This document shows, piece by piece, positions 2,451-63,734 of a stretch of 64,000 nt of DNA (position 1 is its first letter; the number at the start of each line of letters is the position of its first letter). The notes below the pieces were generated by a model that was not told the DNA's origin, did no database searches, and was given only the letters and a program-made list of their open reading frames with translations. The position numbers and the translations under genes were made by a program. The stretch is taken from positions 2,547,501 through 2,611,500 of the forward strand of contig NC_009937.1 of assembly GCF_000010525.1 (NCBI RefSeq), given 5' to 3'. The stretch comes from Azorhizobium caulinodans ORS 571 (GTDB lineage Bacteria > Pseudomonadota > Alphaproteobacteria > Rhizobiales > Xanthobacteraceae).

Positions 2451-3149
2451 ATGAAAGCAGCCGTTCTCCTCTTCCCTGGCTCCAATCGTGAAGGCGATGC
2501 GGCGCGCGCCCTTCGCCTCGTGACCGGACAGGAGCCCAAGGTCGTCTGGCACGCGGAGAGCGAGCTGCCGCAGGGCACCGATCTCGTGGTGCTGCCCGGC
2601 GGCTTCTCCTATGGCGATTATCTGCGCTGCGGCGCCATCGCCGCCCGCGCCAACATCATGGACGCGGTGCGCGCCCATGCTGCCCGCGGCGGCCTCGTCA
2701 TCGGCATCTGCAACGGCTTCCAGATCCTCTGCGAGGCCGGCCTGCTGCCGGGCGTGCTGGTGCGCAACGCCAAGCTGCGCTTCGTCTGCCGCGAGGTGTT
2801 CCTGCGCGTCGAGCGGGCCGACACGGCCTTCACGAAGGCCTATCGCAAGGGCGACCTCATCCGCGTGCCGGTGGCGCACGGCGAGGGCAACTACACCGCC
2901 GATCCGGCGACCATCCAGCGCCTGGAAGGCGAAGGCCGGGTGGCCTTCCGCTATGCCCGCGCCGACGGCCAGATCGACGAGACCGATGGCCCGAACGGCG
3001 CCATCAACGGCATCGCCGGCATCTATTCCGAGAAGCTGAACGTGCTCGGCATGATGCCGCATCCCGAGAACTATGTGGACCCCGTGGTGGGGCCGACGGA
3101 CGGGCGCGGCCTGTTCGAAAGCCTTGCCGGCGCGCTCAAGGCGGCCTGA
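2451..3149 (+). CDS. purQ: FGAM synthase glutaminase subunit PurQ
   Basis: A 232-residue class I glutamine amidotransferase that supplies ammonia to PurL for making FGAM. It begins [18 protein letters not shown], typical of PurQ. The nucleophile cysteine lies in [11 protein letters not shown] at about residue 86, with [12 protein letters not shown] upstream. The catalytic His-Glu pair is in MMPHPENY near residue 204. It ends 67 nt before purL. Length and motifs are complete. Confidence 0.96.
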
Positions 3150-3216
3150 CGCGCCTGCGGCGCGCTTCCGCGCCCGGCGCCTTTCCCAAAGACCTGGATT
3201 GATCGGACGGACGAAC

Positions 3217-5424
<2,208 letters not shown>

Positions 5425-57463: not shown

Positions 57464-58930
57464 TTGTCGAGGTCATCGGCCGAGCGGCCGTCCCAGTGCT
57501 GGATGCGCCTGCTCATGATAGGCGGCCTGTGCACCGTCATCTTTCTCATCGACACCCTGTCGCCGATGGATATGGCCATTGCCGTGCTTTACGGCGCCGT
57601 GGTCCTTTTCGCCTCTGCCGAACTCGACCGCCGCGGGCTCCTTCTGGTCAGCGGAGGGTGCGTCCTCCTCACGGTCCTGAGCTTCATCATCACCCACGGC
57701 GAGGCCTATACGCTCGCGGCGACCATGCGCGCCGTGGTGGCCATTGCCGCCATCGCCATCACCACGCTCCTCGCGCGGCGAAACCAGGATGCCACCGCCT
57801 CCCTGCGGGATCAGGCGGCCCTGCTCGACCTGTCGCACGATGCCATCTTCGTGCGCGACCTCGGCGGGGTCATCACCTACTGGAGCCGGGGGGCGCATCA
57901 TCTCTACGGCTGGAGCGCCTCCGAGGCGGTGGGCCTGCAAACCGAGGCGCTGCTGCGGACGCGCTTTCCCTGCCCGCTCGACCACATCATGGCGGAGCTT
58001 GAAAGCACGGGGCAGTGGGACGGGGAACTCGTCCACACCACCCGCGATGGCCGCAAGGTGGTGTGCCTCAGTCGCTGGTCGCTCCAGCGGGAGGCGCAAG
58101 GCCGGCCCGCGCGCATCATGGAGACGAATCACGACATCACGGCCCGCAAGCAGGCCGAGGACGATCTCCATCAGGCGCGCAGCGACATCGCTTATGTGAC
58201 GCGCCTGAGTACGCTGGGCGAGCTCGCCACCTCCATTGCCCACGAGGTCAACCAGCCGCTCGCCGCCATCGTGACCAATGGCGAGGCGGGCCTGCGCTGG
58301 CTGCAGCGGGACGTGCCGGATCTCGGCGAGGTCCAGCTGAGCATGAGCCGCATGATCTCGAACGCCCAGCGCGCGAGCAACGTCGTGGGACGCCTGCGCG
58401 CGCTGGTGCGCAGGGACGCGCCCGACCATCTGCCGCTCGATGGCGGTGAACTGGTCGAGGACTGCCTGCTGCTGCTGGAGCGCGAGCTGGCGAACAACCG
58501 GGTGAAGGTCTGCCCCTCCTTCCCGCCCGACCTGCCCCGGGTGCGCGGCGACCGGGTGCAGCTTCAGCAGGTGGTGATCAACCTCGTCCTCAATGCCGCT
58601 CAGGCCATGCAGGCGGTGCCCGAGGAGGAGCGCGTGCTGCGCATCAGCGTCCACTGCGACGGGGCGACGCCGGCCCCCTGCCTGCTCATCGAGGTGGAGG
58701 ACAGCGGACCGGGCGCGCCGCCGCAGGTGCTGAACGCGCTCTTCACCCCTTTCTTCACCACCAAGAAGGACGGCATCGGGATCGGCCTCTCCATCTCGCG
58801 CTCCATCGTGGAGGCCCATGAGGGACGCATCCTCGCAACCCCGGCCGAGCCGCGGGGGCTGCGCATGACCGTTCAACTCCCGATCACCGGCGACATGGCA
58901 GCGCCCGGTCTGCAGGAGAAGGCCTCGTGA
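57464..58930 (+). CDS. Membrane-bound PAS sensor histidine kinase
   Basis: A 488-residue kinase. The N-terminal 100 residues hold about four short membrane helices; a PAS domain follows (LLDLSHDAIFVRDLGGVITY, then VGLQTEALL) and then the HisKA H-box ELATSIAHEVNQPLAAIVTN of the FixL/DctB type. The ATPase domain is intact: N-box INLVLNAAQAM, EVEDSGPGAP, and GIGIGLSISRSIVEAHEG. Start uncertain: TTG 57464 has GGGAGAGG upstream, while ATG 57503 has none. Its stop overlaps the downstream FixJ-type regulator (TGATG), so the two form a two-component pair. The signal is unknown. Confidence 0.9.
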   Translation: MSRSSAERPSQCWMRLLMIGGLCTVIFLIDTLSPMDMAIAVLYGAVVLFASAELDRRGLLLVSGGCVLLTVLSFIITHGEAYTLAATMRAVVAIAAIAITTLLARRNQDATASLRDQAALLDLSHDAIFVRDLGGVITYWSRGAHHLYGWSASEAVGLQTEALLRTRFPCPLDHIMAELESTGQWDGELVHTTRDGRKVVCLSRWSLQREAQGRPARIMETNHDITARKQAEDDLHQARSDIAYVTRLSTLGELATSIAHEVNQPLAAIVTNGEAGLRWLQRDVPDLGEVQLSMSRMISNAQRASNVVGRLRALVRRDAPDHLPLDGGELVEDCLLLLERELANNRVKVCPSFPPDLPRVRGDRVQLQQVVINLVLNAAQAMQAVPEEERVLRISVHCDGATPAPCLLIEVEDSGPGAPPQVLNALFTPFFTTKKDGIGIGLSISRSIVEAHEGRILATPAEPRGLRMTVQLPITGDMAAPGLQEKAS

Positions 58931-59583
58931 TGAAGGTCCAGAAATCCCGCAAGGAAACGGCGCCCGCGACACCCGTGGTGATCGTGGTGGACGACGACGC
59001 AGGTCTGCGGGAGGCCCTGTCCAGCCTGTTCCGTTCGGTTGGCCTTGAAGTGGCGCTCTTCGCCTCGGCGCTGGAGATGCTCGCCGCCCCCCTGCCCGAC
59101 GCGCCACGCTGCCTCGTGCTCGACATCCGCCTGCCCGGCGTCAGCGGGCTCGACTTCCAGCAGCAGTTGACGCGGCAGGACGTGGACATGCCCATCATCT
59201 TCATGACCGGACACGGGGATATTCCCATGTCGGTGCGGGCCATGAAGGCGGGCGCCCTCGATTTCCTGACCAAGCCGTTCCGCGATCAGGACATGCTCGA
59301 CGCGGTGCTGGCAGCCATCGCCATGGATCGCACGCGCCGCGACGAACGGGCCGCGTCCGACCACGTCCGCACGCTCTATGAGAGCCTGACCGAACGGGAG
59401 AAGCAGATCATGGGACTGGTCACCTCCGGCCTCATGAACAAGCAGGTGGCCGCGGAGGTGGGGCTCAGCGAGATCACGGTGAAGATCTATCGGGGCAACG
59501 TCATGCGGAAGATGGCCGCACGTTCCTTCGCCGACCTCGTGCGCATGGCGGAGGCGGTGGGCCTCAGCAAGCCGAAGGCCTGA
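58930..59583 (+). CDS. FixJ/NarL-type response regulator
   Basis: A 217-residue regulator. The receiver has the acidic pair in VVDDDAGLREAL, the phospho-acceptor aspartate in LVLDIRLPGVSG, the threonine in FMTGHGDIPMSV and the lysine in DFLTKPFRD. A LuxR-type helix-turn-helix ends the protein (LTEREKQIMGLVTSGLMNKQ, VGLSEITVKIYRGNVMRKM). It is the likely partner of the upstream kinase by one-base overlap. GTG 58927 is an alternative start. Confidence 0.92.
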   Translation: MKVQKSRKETAPATPVVIVVDDDAGLREALSSLFRSVGLEVALFASALEMLAAPLPDAPRCLVLDIRLPGVSGLDFQQQLTRQDVDMPIIFMTGHGDIPMSVRAMKAGALDFLTKPFRDQDMLDAVLAAIAMDRTRRDERAASDHVRTLYESLTEREKQIMGLVTSGLMNKQVAAEVGLSEITVKIYRGNVMRKMAARSFADLVRMAEAVGLSKPKA

Positions 59584-59687
59584 GCCGCCAAACGTGTGTA
59601 TGATACTCCTGAGGCCCTTCGAGGGCCTATGGTGAGCCTCGATGCGGTGCGCATGCCGAACGGCAGCGCGCCCCAAGAGGTGCTGAC

Positions 59688-60071
59688 GTGTCTGTTTCTC
59701 CGATGATCACGATCATCGACGACGACGAGTTCGTCCGTCTCGCGACCGAGAGTTTCATGCGGTCGCTGGGTTTCGAGACCCGGACCTTTGCCTGCGCAGA
59801 GGACTTCTTCTCGTCGCCGCTCCGACATGCCACGGACTGCATCATCACCGATGTGCAGATGCCGGGCATGAGCGGCGTGGAGCTTCTCGCCCGTCTGCGC
59901 GCTGAAGGAAGCGCCGTGCCGGTGATCGTCGTGACGGCCTTTCCCAGCGACCGCATCCGCTCCCGCGCCACGGAACTCGGGGCGCTGGGTTTCTTTCCGA
60001 AGCCCTTCAGCGGCGCCGACATTGTGGCCTGCATCGAGAAGGCCGTCGGGCCCGGACCGGCCGGCCCCTGA
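59688..60071 (+). CDS. Single-domain response regulator
   Basis: A 127-residue stand-alone receiver: acidic pair in ITIIDDDEFVRL, phospho-acceptor in CIITDVQMPGMSG, threonine in VIVVTAFPSD and lysine in GFFPKPFSG. There is no output domain. The GTG at 59688 has AAGAGG seven bases upstream. It may be a phosphate sink or a competitor in the kinase/FixJ pair just upstream. A hairpin (AGGCCCT-TCG-AGGGCCT, 59612-59628) separates it from that pair. Confidence 0.88.
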   Translation: MSVSPMITIIDDDEFVRLATESFMRSLGFETRTFACAEDFFSSPLRHATDCIITDVQMPGMSGVELLARLRAEGSAVPVIVVTAFPSDRIRSRATELGALGFFPKPFSGADIVACIEKAVGPGPAGP

Positions 60072-60081
60072 GCGTCTCGTT

Positions 60082-60399
60082 TCAGCTCGACAGGACGGTT
60101 GCGCCGGCGGCCAGCACGATCAATCCAAGGACGATGAAGCCCCAGGTTCGCCAACTCGGTGGTGCGCTGGCGGGCGCGCGGTTGTCTTCCTCACTCCGGG
60201 CCCTATAGAGCTCCCCGACGGCAGGGTCTCCATCGGCAATCCGGTCCCCGCGCTGGGGCGGCTCCCAAGCGCTTTGCGGCCGGTTTCCGCTGGCCTCGTC
60301 GTCAGTCCCGAGGGGAGCTGCGGCGAGATCGGCATAGCGGATCTTGTCCCGGGTCTGCCCCGCATCCGTGGCATGGCGCACCTTCTGGGCATCGGTCAT
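60082..60399 (-). CDS. Small C-terminally anchored membrane protein, unknown
   Basis: I do not recognise this family. The 105-residue product starts MTDAQKVRHATDAGQTRDKI, is hydrophilic for about 80 residues, and ends in one membrane helix (WGFIVLGLIVLAAGATVL) with only two residues after it, so it would be tail-anchored with its bulk in the cytoplasm. A GAGG precedes the ATG. It is divergent from the DUF4142 stress gene, and a one-mismatch EcfG-type promoter lies upstream, so a stress role is plausible. Confidence 0.62.
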   Translation of the reverse strand: MTDAQKVRHATDAGQTRDKIRYADLAAAPLGTDDEASGNRPQSAWEPPQRGDRIADGDPAVGELYRARSEEDNRAPASAPPSWRTWGFIVLGLIVLAAGATVLSS

Positions 60400-60444: not shown

Positions 60445-60469
60445 AATGCCTGCGGGGCGTCGGCGTTCC
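60445..60469 (-). promoter_or_regulatory. EcfG-like promoter, one mismatch, for the small membrane protein
   Basis: On the minus strand GGAAC (60469-60465) is followed after 16 bases by CATT (60448-60445), against the consensus CGTT. It lies about 46 bases before the start at 60399. Confidence 0.4.
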
Positions 60470-60495
60470 CCTCTCCCGATTAACGGCCGCCGCCC

Positions 60496-60520
60496 GGAAC
60501 AGCGCAGGCGAGCGGGCGTT
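60496..60520 (+). promoter_or_regulatory. EcfG-type general-stress promoter before DUF4142
   Basis: GGAAC (60496-60500), 16 bases, then CGTT (60517-60520): an exact match to the alphaproteobacterial EcfG consensus. It is 27 bases before the DUF4142 start. Confidence 0.75.
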
Positions 60521-60547
60521 GCCTCCAGGACACCCAAGGAGGCATCC

Positions 60548-61087
60548 ATGAAAAAATACCTGACCGCTGCCGTGGCAGCGGGCGCGATCCTGTGCGCCGC
60601 TCCCGTGATGGCCCAGTCGCTCGGGGAGAAGACCGGCGTCAACGCCGCGCTCGGTGTCACGCCCTCCACGCAGGACTTCGTAACGCAGGCCGCCGTCAGC
60701 GACATGTTCGAGATCGAGAGCGCAAAGCTCGCGGTGGAACGTACGTCCGATGCTCCCACCAAGGCGTTCGCCCAGCAGATGATCACCGATCACACCAAGA
60801 CATCGCAGGAACTGAAGGGGCTGGTCTCCTCGGCAAACCTTCAGGTCAACCTGCCGACCAGCCTCGACAAGAGCCATCAGGACAAGCTCGACCGGCTGCG
60901 CAGCCTGAATGGCGCGGAATTTACTGACGCCTATCACAAGATGCAGGAAGACGCGCACAAGGACGCCGTATCGCTGTTCAAGCGCTACGCCTCCGGTGGG
61001 GAGTCGGCGCCCCTGAAGGACTGGGCGGGCAAGACCCTGCCCGCGCTGGAGCACCACCTGAAGGTCGCGGACGACCTCAACAAGTGA
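60548..61087 (+). CDS. DUF4142 periplasmic ferritin-like protein
   Basis: A 179-residue secreted protein. Residues 1-22 form a signal peptide ending in VMA. The mature part is a helical DUF4142 domain: DFVTQAAVSDMFEIESAKLA, then AFAQQMITDHTKTSQELK and DAYHKMQEDAHKDAVSLFKR, with regularly placed His, Asp and Glu residues that recall ferritin-like four-helix bundles. The biochemical role is not established. AAGGAGG precedes the start, an exact EcfG promoter is upstream, and the stop overlaps the topoisomerase start (GTGA). Confidence 0.85.
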   Translation: MKKYLTAAVAAGAILCAAPVMAQSLGEKTGVNAALGVTPSTQDFVTQAAVSDMFEIESAKLAVERTSDAPTKAFAQQMITDHTKTSQELKGLVSSANLQVNLPTSLDKSHQDKLDRLRSLNGAEFTDAYHKMQEDAHKDAVSLFKRYASGGESAPLKDWAGKTLPALEHHLKVADDLNK

Positions 61088-62229
61088 AACCGCTCGACTA
61101 TAGCGGCCCCGTCGCCCCGTCCCGCCGCGCCCGATCGGGCGGAACGAAGCGGCCGCGCCCGGCCATCGTGAAGGAGATGGCGCGGGCGGCGGGTCTCGTA
61201 CTGGTGGACCAGTCAGCCCTGCGGCTCACCCGGCGCAAGGCGGGGCGCGGCTACTGCTATTTCGATGCGTCCGGCACGCTCATCACCGACGAGCCGACGC
61301 GCGCCCGCCTCGCGTCGCTCGCCGTTCCTCCGGCGCATAAGCAGGTGCGTTACGCGGAAAATCCCCGGGCTCATCTTCAGGCGGTCGGCTATGACGCAGC
61401 CGGCCGCCTCCAGTATCGCTACCATCCGCGCTGGGAACTGGTGCGCGAGCGGTGCAAGGCGGAGCGCCTCGCACGCTTCGCCGAAGCCCTGTCCACCATC
61501 CGGCGGGCGGTGGCGCGGGATCTCGGCTCACCCCCCGGTTCGCGGACCTTCGCGCTCTCGGCCGTGGTGGAACTCGTGACCCTCACCGCCATCCGCGCCG
61601 GGGAGGAAGGCTATGCCCGAGCCCGCGGCACCCGCGGGGCGGCGACCCTGCTGAAGTCCAATCTCCGCAGCGAGGAGGGGCAGCTCATCCTGAGTTTCCG
61701 AGCGAAGGGGGGCCGGCGAACCGTCTGCCAGATCACCGATCCCCGTTTCATCGTGATCGTCTCGTCTCTCTCCGCCCTGCCCGGTCGGCGGCTGTTCCAG
61801 TACCGAGACGACGCCGGAGCCGTTCGGACCGTGCGGGCGGGCGATGTGAACGCTTATCTCAAGGAGGTCGCGGGCGTTCCGGTCTCGCTCAAGGATTTCC
61901 GAACGCTGGTGGCTTCAGCGAGCGTCCTCGACATCCTCGCCCGTGCGGAGCCCGCGTCCAGCGCCCGCGCGCGCAATGCGCAGGTGGTCGCGGCCATCCG
62001 AGCGGCCGCGGAGACGCTGAACAACACGCCCGCCATATGCCGCAAGAGCTATGTGATGCCGGCCGTGGTCGCCGCCTTCGAGGACGGCACCCTGTCCCGC
62101 TTCGCCGCAACCCTGAAGCGCTGCCGCTCGCCCATCCGCCGGGCCGGCATCCTGGCCGAACTGATCCGCGAGAGCTGCGGTGCCGGGGCGAACGTGACGC
62201 TCAAGGACGCGCCTCGAGCCTCGCCATAA
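61084..62229 (+). CDS. DNA topoisomerase IB
   Basis: A 381-residue poxvirus-like type IB topoisomerase that relaxes supercoils by nicking one strand through a 3'-phosphotyrosine. The hallmark HLQAVGYDAAGRLQYRYHPR segment is at about residues 97-116. Catalytic residues by alignment are R171 (AIRAGEE), K208 (FRAKGG), R273 (KDFRTL) and the nucleophile Y323 (CRKSYVMP). The GTG at 61084 overlaps the DUF4142 stop, so it should be co-expressed with that stress protein from the EcfG promoter. Such enzymes are common but sporadic in soil alphaproteobacteria. Confidence 0.9.
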   Translation: MKPLDYSGPVAPSRRARSGGTKRPRPAIVKEMARAAGLVLVDQSALRLTRRKAGRGYCYFDASGTLITDEPTRARLASLAVPPAHKQVRYAENPRAHLQAVGYDAAGRLQYRYHPRWELVRERCKAERLARFAEALSTIRRAVARDLGSPPGSRTFALSAVVELVTLTAIRAGEEGYARARGTRGAATLLKSNLRSEEGQLILSFRAKGGRRTVCQITDPRFIVIVSSLSALPGRRLFQYRDDAGAVRTVRAGDVNAYLKEVAGVPVSLKDFRTLVASASVLDILARAEPASSARARNAQVVAAIRAAAETLNNTPAICRKSYVMPAVVAAFEDGTLSRFAATLKRCRSPIRRAGILAELIRESCGAGANVTLKDAPRASP

Positions 62230-62276
62230 AGGTCCGACCGAGAAAATCACAAGTCCAGCCAATGTAACGGATGACC

Positions 62277-62301
62277 GGAACCTGATCCACCACGGACCGT
62301 T
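62277..62301 (+). promoter_or_regulatory. EcfG-type general-stress promoter before yciF-like gene
   Basis: GGAAC (62277-62281), 16 bases, then CGTT (62298-62301): a second exact match to the EcfG consensus, 40 bases before the start of the ferritin-like gene. Confidence 0.75.
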
Positions 62302-62341: not shown

Positions 62342-62833
62342 ATGGCACAGGCCAAGTCTCTGAATGATCTTTTTCTCGAAACGCTGAAGGACATCTATTA
62401 CGCCGAAAAGCAGATCCTGCGTGCCCTGCCCAAGATGGCCAAGACGGCCCAGTCGGACGAACTGCGCTCGGCTTTCATGAAGCATCAGGAGCAGACGGAA
62501 GGCCAGATCGAGCGTCTGGAGCAGGTGTTCGAAATGCTCGGGAAGAGCGCCCGCGGCAAGCACTGCCCGGCGATCGTCGGCATTGTCGACGAGGGCAAGG
62601 AGATCATGGAGGACTTCGCCGGCACTGATGCGCTGGACGCCGGCCTCCTCTCGGCGGCCCAGGCCGTGGAGCACTATGAGATCTCGCGCTACGGCACGCT
62701 GAAGACCTGGGCCGGCCAGCTCGGACTGAAGGATGCGGTACCCCTTCTGGAGGCGACCCTTCAGGAAGAGAAGGAGACCGATGCGCTCCTCACCCGCCTC
62801 GCCGGCGCCACGGTGAACAAGAAGGCCGCCTGA
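62342..62833 (+). CDS. YciF/DUF892 ferritin-like stress protein
   Basis: A 163-residue four-helix ferritin-like protein of the YciF family. It begins MAQAKSLNDLFLETLKDIYY and has AEKQILRALPKMAKTAQSDE, HQEQTEGQIERLEQVF and QAVEHYEISRYGTLKTWA, giving the Glu and His residues of a likely di-metal site. YciF-type proteins are induced by stress in enterobacteria, though their reaction is unclear. An exact EcfG promoter sits upstream, followed by GAGAGGAC before the start. Two further genes follow on the same strand. Confidence 0.9.
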   Translation: MAQAKSLNDLFLETLKDIYYAEKQILRALPKMAKTAQSDELRSAFMKHQEQTEGQIERLEQVFEMLGKSARGKHCPAIVGIVDEGKEIMEDFAGTDALDAGLLSAAQAVEHYEISRYGTLKTWAGQLGLKDAVPLLEATLQEEKETDALLTRLAGATVNKKAA

Positions 62834-62906: not shown

Positions 62907-63113
62907 ATGTGGCTCAAACCCAAGCTTGTTGGAGACACTGAAGGCACGAGGCTCGGTGTAATGCCGGGCTGGTGGGCGGTGGCGGAAGACGGAACGCCCG
63001 TCTCCGGGCCTTATCCCTCCGAGGAAGCGGCCATCGTCAGCATCGGCAAGCGGGGAGCCGACCAGCCCGCCGGCACACCCGACGAATCGGGCCCGCCGCC
63101 CAGAGGCACCTGA
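62907..63113 (+). CDS. Small conserved-looking protein, unknown
   Basis: I do not recognise a named family. The 68-residue product begins MWLKPKLVGDTEGTRLGVMP, then GWWAVAEDGTPVSGPYPSEE and AAIVSIGKRG, a compact soluble layout with a proline-rich tail. A GCAGGGAG Shine-Dalgarno precedes ATG 62907; a TTG at 62889 would extend it by six residues. It ends 3 bases before the cysteine hydrolase, so they are probably co-translated, and both may be read from the EcfG promoter upstream of yciF. Confidence 0.6.
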   Translation: MWLKPKLVGDTEGTRLGVMPGWWAVAEDGTPVSGPYPSEEAAIVSIGKRGADQPAGTPDESGPPPRGT

Positions 63114-63116
63114 GGC

Positions 63117-63734
63117 ATGGGAGAAGGCCTGCGGCGCGATCCCATCGGGCCGAACGCCGTGCATGTCTGCCTCGACATGCAGCGCCTGTTGGCTCCCGGC
63201 GGGCCGTGGCCCACGCCATGGGCGCTGGACGTCATTCCCGCCATTACGGAACTTGCCGCCCGTGCACCGGCGCGCACCGTGTTTACGCGCTTCCTTCCGC
63301 CCGAGGCGCCGGACGGACTTACAGGCACGTGGCAGCGCTTCTACCGCAAGTGGCACGATCTCACCCGGAGCGAGCTCGACCCCGGCCTGCTTGATCTCGT
63401 GCCGGAGCTCGCACGCTTTGTCCCTCCCGCGCATGTGGTGGACAAATCCCGCTATTCCGCCTTTTCCGGAGCGGACCTTCTGCCCCTTCTCACGCACCTG
63501 CGCGCTGACACACTGATCCTTTCCGGCGCGGAGACGGATGTATGCGTGCTCGCCACCCTGTTTGATGCCGTGGATTTCGGGTTCCGCGTCATCCTTGCGG
63601 GGGATGCGGTCTGCTCCTCCTCCGACACAGGCCACGACGCCATCATGGCCATGCTCCAGACCCGCCTTTCCATTCAGGTCGAGGTCGCGCGGACGGAAGA
63701 CATTCTCAACCGGTGGGAGCGGCCGGCGCTCTGA
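63117..63734 (+). CDS. Isochorismatase-family cysteine hydrolase
   Basis: A 205-residue hydrolase of the isochorismatase/nicotinamidase fold. The catalytic triad is visible: D20 in VCLDMQRL, K110 in VVDKSRYSAFSG and C143 in GAETDVCVLAT, with the usual cis-peptide region before the cysteine. The substrate cannot be fixed; amides such as nicotinamide or ureido compounds are usual. It follows the 68-residue gene by 3 bases and is the last gene of the putative stress unit. Confidence 0.88.
   Translation: MGEGLRRDPIGPNAVHVCLDMQRLLAPGGPWPTPWALDVIPAITELAARAPARTVFTRFLPPEAPDGLTGTWQRFYRKWHDLTRSELDPGLLDLVPELARFVPPAHVVDKSRYSAFSGADLLPLLTHLRADTLILSGAETDVCVLATLFDAVDFGFRVILAGDAVCSSSDTGHDAIMAMLQTRLSIQVEVARTEDILNRWERPAL

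Follow-up and report, generated by a model that had tools for sequence, protein, structure and literature searches.

The gene cluster and its promoter-like sites

The analysed DNA is a 64-kb stretch of the Azorhizobium caulinodans ORS 571 genome, referred to below as the window. The part of it considered here carries six genes and three promoter-like sites, listed by position in the window:

60082-60399, minus strand: small protein, 105 aa, with one hydrophobic stretch near the C-terminus (by eye)
60445-60469, minus strand: variant of an EcfG-type promoter with one mismatch, GGAAC-N16-CATT, 45 nt 5′ of the divergent small gene
60496-60520, plus strand: EcfG-type promoter, exact GGAAC-N16-CGTT, 27 nt 5′ of the DUF4142 ATG
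60548-61087, plus strand: DUF4142 protein, 179 aa (PF13628, E 4.8e-46)
61084-62229, plus strand: bacterial DNA topoisomerase IB, 381 aa, GTG start (PF01028, 1.2e-18; PF21338, 2.9e-17)
62277-62301, plus strand: EcfG-type promoter, exact GGAAC-N16-CGTT, 40 nt 5′ of the DUF892/YciF ATG
62342-62833, plus strand: DUF892/YciF stress protein, 163 aa (PF05974, 9e-62)
62907-63113, plus strand: small ORF, 68 aa, possibly on the YciF transcript, judging from spacing
63117-63734, plus strand: isochorismatase-fold hydrolase (PF00857, 1.3e-33), possibly on the YciF transcript, again judging from spacing

An earlier note on this DNA had reported exact copies of GGAAC-N16-CGTT at 60496-60520 and 62277-62301, as well as a copy with one mismatch in front of the divergent small gene. 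Both exact copies are present on the plus strand, and the third site indeed reads GGAAC-N16-CATT on the minus strand (60445-60469). The exact copies are the sole matches to GGAAC-N15-18-CGTT in the window, and the third site is one of 16 with at most one mismatch, against 10.3 expected. All three lie less than 100 nt from a start codon (27, 40 and 45 nt), the distance used to recognize EcfG promoters, and the corresponding boxes (-35 GGAAC and -10 CGTT, 16-17 nt apart) are exact in two of them and altered by one change in the third. The motif GGAAC-N16-CGTT is the same as that given for the EcfG regulons of Rhizobium etli (PMC3892343) and Sphingopyxis granuli (PMC7083833). According to the latter, the -35 box of Sphingopyxis EcfG promoters is nearly fixed and the -10 box is flexible (PMC7083833).

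The DUF4142 stop codon and the topoisomerase IB start codon overlap by 4 nt (GTGA, 61084-61087), an arrangement that fits translational coupling of the two genes, and by eye no clear Shine-Dalgarno sequence precedes the topoisomerase IB GTG. Between the DUF4142 start and position 61140 (60548-61140) no further EcfG-like site was found on the plus strand at one mismatch or fewer and spacers of 15-18, so that stress control of topoisomerase IB would depend on the promoter 5′ of DUF4142. The DUF892 protein matches solved YciF structures (4eru YciF, 2.7e-40). At E 0.01 neither Pfam nor NCBIfam gave a match for the 105-aa protein, nor was a family found for the 68-aa ORF at this threshold. Genes for a PAS sensor kinase, a FixJ-type regulator and a stand-alone receiver directly precede the cluster (57464-60071 of the window).

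Both the N-terminal and the catalytic domain of topoisomerase IB are present, with PF21338 and PF01028 above cut-off. The catalytic set of this enzyme family is Arg-Lys-Arg-Asn/His-Tyr. Residues R171, K208, R273, N314 and Y323 are invariant across 23 sequences and align with R137, K174, R239, N280 and Y289 of 2f4q, presumably the topoisomerase IB of Deinococcus radiodurans, in which we take these five to be the catalytic residues. By this alignment the catalytic residues appear intact, the likeness to the D. radiodurans enzyme being one of sequence family and of five aligned catalytic positions. To our knowledge, few roles have been established for bacterial topoisomerase IB. The Pseudomonas aeruginosa enzyme needs Mg but no ATP to relax supercoils of either sign (PMC2666729). 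A difference lies in regulation: the non-alphaproteobacterial topoisomerase IB genes lack a motif with a 16-17 spacer upstream at 45 of 45 loci.

The predicted model of the DUF4142 protein (pLDDT 89.7) is a bundle of four long helices with additional shorter ones. Its best Foldseek matches are the four-helix proteins of the CopM/DUF305 type (5ffc_A, E 6.9e-4, TM 0.66/0.79; 2qf9_B, E 9.3e-4), and YciF and Dps appear among lower-ranked matches at E >0.05. By sequence the DUF305 match is sub-threshold and the identity to CopM/DUF305 is 15%; the closest solved fold is copper-bound, and the likeness is to the fold of a predicted model. The description of this protein as ferritin-like in the earlier note thus holds as regards the predicted four-helix bundle, but CopM/DUF305 is closer to the model than classical ferritin is. 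The protein is probably secreted, since its N-terminus resembles a signal peptide by eye, and this is also the basis for the periplasmic location given in the earlier note.

General stress regulators and motif placement in the genome

In alphaproteobacteria under stress, NepR is captured by phosphorylated PhyR, and EcfG is thereby freed. PhyR (C1:411976-412134, E 7.9e-21), an EcfG-like sigma factor and a NepR-like protein were all found in the genome, the last at E 2.1e-4 and 24.1 bits in the genome search, below the family cut-off of 25.7. The ECF sigma gene encodes an EcfG-like (PhyR_sigma2-type) region 2 and lies approximately 250 nt from the NepR-like gene (L001 532-1689); on the basis of this region and this neighbour its product is taken as EcfG. 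The two genes are convergent, unlike the overlapping nepR2-ecfG1 operon described for Sphingopyxis (PMC7083833). The N16 motif stands directly 5′ of the PhyR gene. Stress-type genes behind other N16 sites include those for trehalose-phosphatase, KGG repeats, PRC-barrel, Transgly_assoc and an ECF sigma factor, and further genes in this position encode DUF1236, DUF2934 and glucose-6-phosphate dehydrogenase. The underlying Pfam scan covers 10 of 15 listed genes, these 15 having been picked from 29, and two of the 10 matched no family.

The idea that the presence of PhyR separates loci that have the motif from those that lack it was considered and rejected: PF22029 matches 47 of 49 genomes, including five of seven non-alphaproteobacteria, as well as all nine of a class-wide draw, and it also matches the ECF sigma factor of A. 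caulinodans itself. One study describes EcfG as confined to alphaproteobacteria (PMC3892343). A 169-aa frame with a PhyR_sigma2 match (E 1.4e-22), which may be a sigma factor, occurs in the betaproteobacterium Noviherbaspirillum humi (G081, the genome of L056).

By count, the sites of the window are unremarkable. The expected number of exact N15-18 matches in the window is 1.33, and at least two were reached by 36 of 100 shuffles; two sites in 64 kb are therefore within chance, and the case rests on position, on the regulators of the host and on conservation. Whole-genome counts were made on the single contig of 5,369,772 bases, with the reversed pattern as the control. With spacers N15-18 pooled, 129 matches were found vs 185 for the reversed pattern. 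Neither the site count in the window nor the pooled spacers in the genome show an excess, and both were dropped as proof. N16 alone is enriched genome-wide (53 vs 30 for the reversed pattern), the other three spacers (N15, N17 and N18) together accounting for 76 matches by subtraction. It is likely that about half of the 53 N16 sites are background, which is why placement matters.

Placement was assessed by the occurrence of a start codon supported by a Shine-Dalgarno sequence downstream of the site, using as the control the 38 N15/N18 sites among the first 100 genome places listed for N15-18. Such a start lies 8-110 nt downstream of 29 of the 53 N16 sites vs eight of the 38 control sites (Fisher p 0.002). 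A supported ATG within 70 nt follows 23 of the 53, both exact sites of the window among them, vs three of the 38 (Fisher p 0.0002). In the 8-70 nt windows 5′ of the three starts of the cluster, about 0.0004 background sites would be expected, although these windows were set after the sites had been seen.

The motif in front of orthologous genes

The earlier note had suggested looking for the same promoter before orthologues. Topoisomerase IB loci were collected from 61 genomes, the studied one included (25 with a match), and from a named collection, of which the best 80 of a list of limited length were used. The search for the motif covered 350 nt, counted upstream from the position aligned with residue 30 of topoisomerase IB. 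The strict form was GGAAC-N16/17-C[AG]TT, and the relaxed form allowed NGTT or CATT as the -10 box; the relaxed -10 box was chosen after near matches had been seen, as was the admission of CATT to the strict form. L026, a fragment, and L046, without upstream DNA, were left out. The strict motif was found at 38 of 58 alphaproteobacterial loci vs none of 45 others (CGTT only, 18/58 vs 0/45; CATT only, 20/58 vs 0/45), and the relaxed one at 45 of 58 vs none of 45. The locus of A. caulinodans is itself scored as a miss, because DUF4142 sits between the promoter and topoisomerase IB. Without this locus and one duplicate (L040, on the same contig as L012), the strict motif precedes 37 of the 56 nearer topoisomerase IB genes, so that the suggested check came out in favour of the promoter; the relaxed motif precedes 44 of the 56 and is absent from 12.

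This signal is specific to the spacer. Among the 58 loci, C[AG]TT was found 17 times at spacer 16 and 21 times at spacer 17, while none of the other spacers between 8 and 29 gave more than 1. In 200 dinucleotide shuffles of the upstream DNA the mean was 0.25 and the maximum three of 58, and the opposite strand carried the motif at four of 58. Per 350 nt, the strict motif was counted 0.649 times upstream and 0.0195 times elsewhere in these alphaproteobacterial loci. The background rate in the non-alphaproteobacterial loci is 0.0041 per 350 nt vs this 0.0195, and hence the absence of the motif from all 45 of them is partly a matter of composition. The loci are also not independent, given that 12 of the 34 named alphaproteobacterial ones are Bradyrhizobium, Tardiphaga, Rhodopseudomonas or Bradyrhizobiaceae by title; with one relative per genus and the studied genome excluded, the strict motif was found in 14 of 23 and the relaxed one in 19 of 23. 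All nine Bradyrhizobium-titled loci have GGAAC-N17-CATT, the form also seen before the topoisomerase IB gene of Sphingomonas melonis Fr1.

In a class-wide draw of 142 genomes, 13 had a topoisomerase IB match, and nine full-length loci remained after our own and three partial matches had been left out. Three of the nine carry the strict motif and five the relaxed one at spacers 16-17, with 0 or 1 at every other spacer from 8 to 29. PhyR-type domains were found in all nine genomes and the relaxed motif is absent at four of the nine loci, indicating that the link is not universal. Thus, the link between the promoter and topoisomerase IB is strong among nearer relatives, and further out it occurs at some loci only.

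The motif was also sought before the other genes of the cluster. Upstream of DUF892 it was found at 12 of 29 loci in the strict and 23 of 29 in the relaxed form (opposite strand, five and seven), the set comprising 29 of 30 loci after omission of L193 at a contig end. For DUF4142 the figures are seven and 14 of 26 (opposite strand, one and one), two genes of the studied genome being included; the 26 come from 30 loci, from which L172, at a contig end, and the weak L176, L177 and L178 were omitted. For the small gene, four of 13 loci were used, with one strict and two relaxed matches (opposite strand, two and three).

As for gene order, a single one of 103 loci, that of A. caulinodans, has DUF4142 upstream of topoisomerase IB in the same orientation; the neighbour search used phmmer at E 1e-3 on stretches that reach 1,283 nt or more upstream, so that a very divergent DUF4142 could be missed. 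The pair was accordingly rejected as a conserved operon. L059 has a distant DUF4142 relative about 0.7 kb upstream of topoisomerase IB on the other strand. The two families are also paired in L016 (G023), in reverse order, where a DUF4142 gene (2857-3411) follows topoisomerase IB by about 270 nt on the same strand. A relative of the small gene adjoins topoisomerase IB in G019 and G046. The order in G046 is small gene (minus strand), promoter, topoisomerase IB and DUF892, with no DUF4142 between, and a stretch of 6.6 kb in G019 contains the small gene together with topoisomerase IB and DUF892. G002, of the same genus, has the small gene and DUF892 together and topoisomerase IB on another contig, and G001 gave no topoisomerase IB match. 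The intergenic DNA of A. caulinodans and two relatives was too diverged for useful alignment. The simplest reading of these orders is that DUF4142 was inserted between an older promoter and topoisomerase IB.

Some further arrangements were observed. In Ancylobacter aquaticus (L042), DUF892 and an isochorismatase-like gene lie 2.6-3.9 kb after the topoisomerase IB anchor on the other strand. G046 has a nearly palindromic site (L004 1352-1378) in which an EcfG-type promoter can be read on both strands, and both genes, the small one to one side and topoisomerase IB to the other, may be transcribed from these 27 nt. Overlapping pairs on opposite strands also occur in the A. caulinodans genome at C1:2510253-2510280 and C1:3349193-3349221, as well as in L265 and L270.

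A probable general stress cluster with topoisomerase IB as a target

The name 'Predicted outer membrane protein', borne by S. melonis gene #1281, is presumably the COG name for DUF4142. In S. melonis Fr1 this gene was down by log2 7.3 in an ecfG mutant and has GGAAC-N17-CGTT 27 nt upstream, and the topoisomerase IB gene #1831, which is preceded by GGAAC-N17-CATT at 24 nt, was among the top EcfG-regulated genes (log2 -3.5 in that mutant; PMC6599016). The link between topoisomerase IB and EcfG is thus already known from that strain. The transcript numbers #1831 and #1281 are far apart there, each with a motif, whereas in A. caulinodans the two genes overlap behind one site. Apart from this study, the literature search, in the passages it covered, found no topoisomerase IB in a general stress or EcfG regulon; the word 'topoisomerase' does not occur in the main texts of PMC3892343 and PMC7083833. 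No paper linking DUF4142 to EcfG was found in the same search. The present analysis adds the controlled evidence that the motif is conserved across relatives, as well as the arrangement with DUF4142; the literature search found neither in print.

Taken together, regulators, position and conservation lend good support to the proposal of the earlier note that the YciF gene and the DUF4142-topoisomerase IB pair are under EcfG-type control. It could be argued that the sites are chance matches in a G+C-rich genome and that the genes are read by the housekeeping sigma factor. The shuffles, 36 of 100 of which yield at least two N15-18 matches, and the pooled genome count, which falls below that of the reversed control, speak for this view, but it accounts neither for the placement before starts nor for the spacer-specific conservation before orthologues, nor for the EcfG dependence of the S. 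melonis topoisomerase IB gene (PMC6599016), and we regard it as very unlikely. A somewhat better case, although still an improbable one, can be made for a promoter that serves DUF4142 alone, topoisomerase IB being transcribed mainly from a non-EcfG promoter inside DUF4142 and its link to stress being incidental. DUF4142 genes elsewhere do have their own EcfG-type motif (the seven strict and 14 relaxed of 26 given above, two of the studied genome included), and by eye the topoisomerase IB GTG has no clear Shine-Dalgarno sequence; against this, relatives without DUF4142 have the motif directly 5′ of topoisomerase IB, and the GTGA overlap favours a single message. Least probable of all, by a small step below chance matching, is that the sites are read not by EcfG but by a different ECF sigma factor whose -35 box is similar. 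The gene starting at C1:1344015, with sigma region 2 and 4 domains, itself stands behind an N16 site and would be a candidate, yet the PhyR gene bears the same motif, and GGAAC-N16-CGTT is the published EcfG motif of R. etli (PMC3892343) and Sphingopyxis (PMC7083833).

We thus believe that this is very probably a general stress cluster with three sites, in which a DUF4142-topoisomerase IB message would be read by EcfG and the enzyme would have a role in DNA torsion. Under stress, phosphorylated PhyR would take up NepR and release EcfG, whose RNA polymerase would then start leftward at the divergent site, giving the message of the small protein, rightward at 60496, giving the DUF4142-topoisomerase IB message, and at 62277, giving the YciF message. 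Topoisomerase IB would be translated from the DUF4142 message, probably aided by the overlapping stop and start codons, and might hold DNA torsion in bounds while the ATP-dependent gyrase slackens. The pairing of the promoter with topoisomerase IB would be the older state, with DUF4142 now between them in the lineage of A. caulinodans. The analysis shows the sites, the gene order, the conservation, the regulators recognized by family match and the intact catalytic residues placed by alignment; the transcription starts, the EcfG dependence in this strain, the coupling and the physiological role we infer. The set of general stress promoters appears to be real and most likely works as first proposed, the topoisomerase link being conserved rather than peculiar to this locus.

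A broader proposal is that the general stress response of alphaproteobacteria has topoisomerase IB as a standing effector, which has stayed under EcfG control despite gene moves and provides an ATP-independent reset of torsion, here on one message with a secreted CopM-like protein; this we offer tentatively, our doubts slightly outweighing our confidence. That the locus belongs to an ordinary general stress regulon with topoisomerase IB as a conserved target is well supported, and for A. caulinodans ORS 571 the gain is mainly a sound regulon annotation. More widely, the presence of a stress promoter 5′ of topoisomerase IB in many nearby alphaproteobacterial genera, and at none of the 45 loci elsewhere, offers a direct handle on the role of this enzyme.
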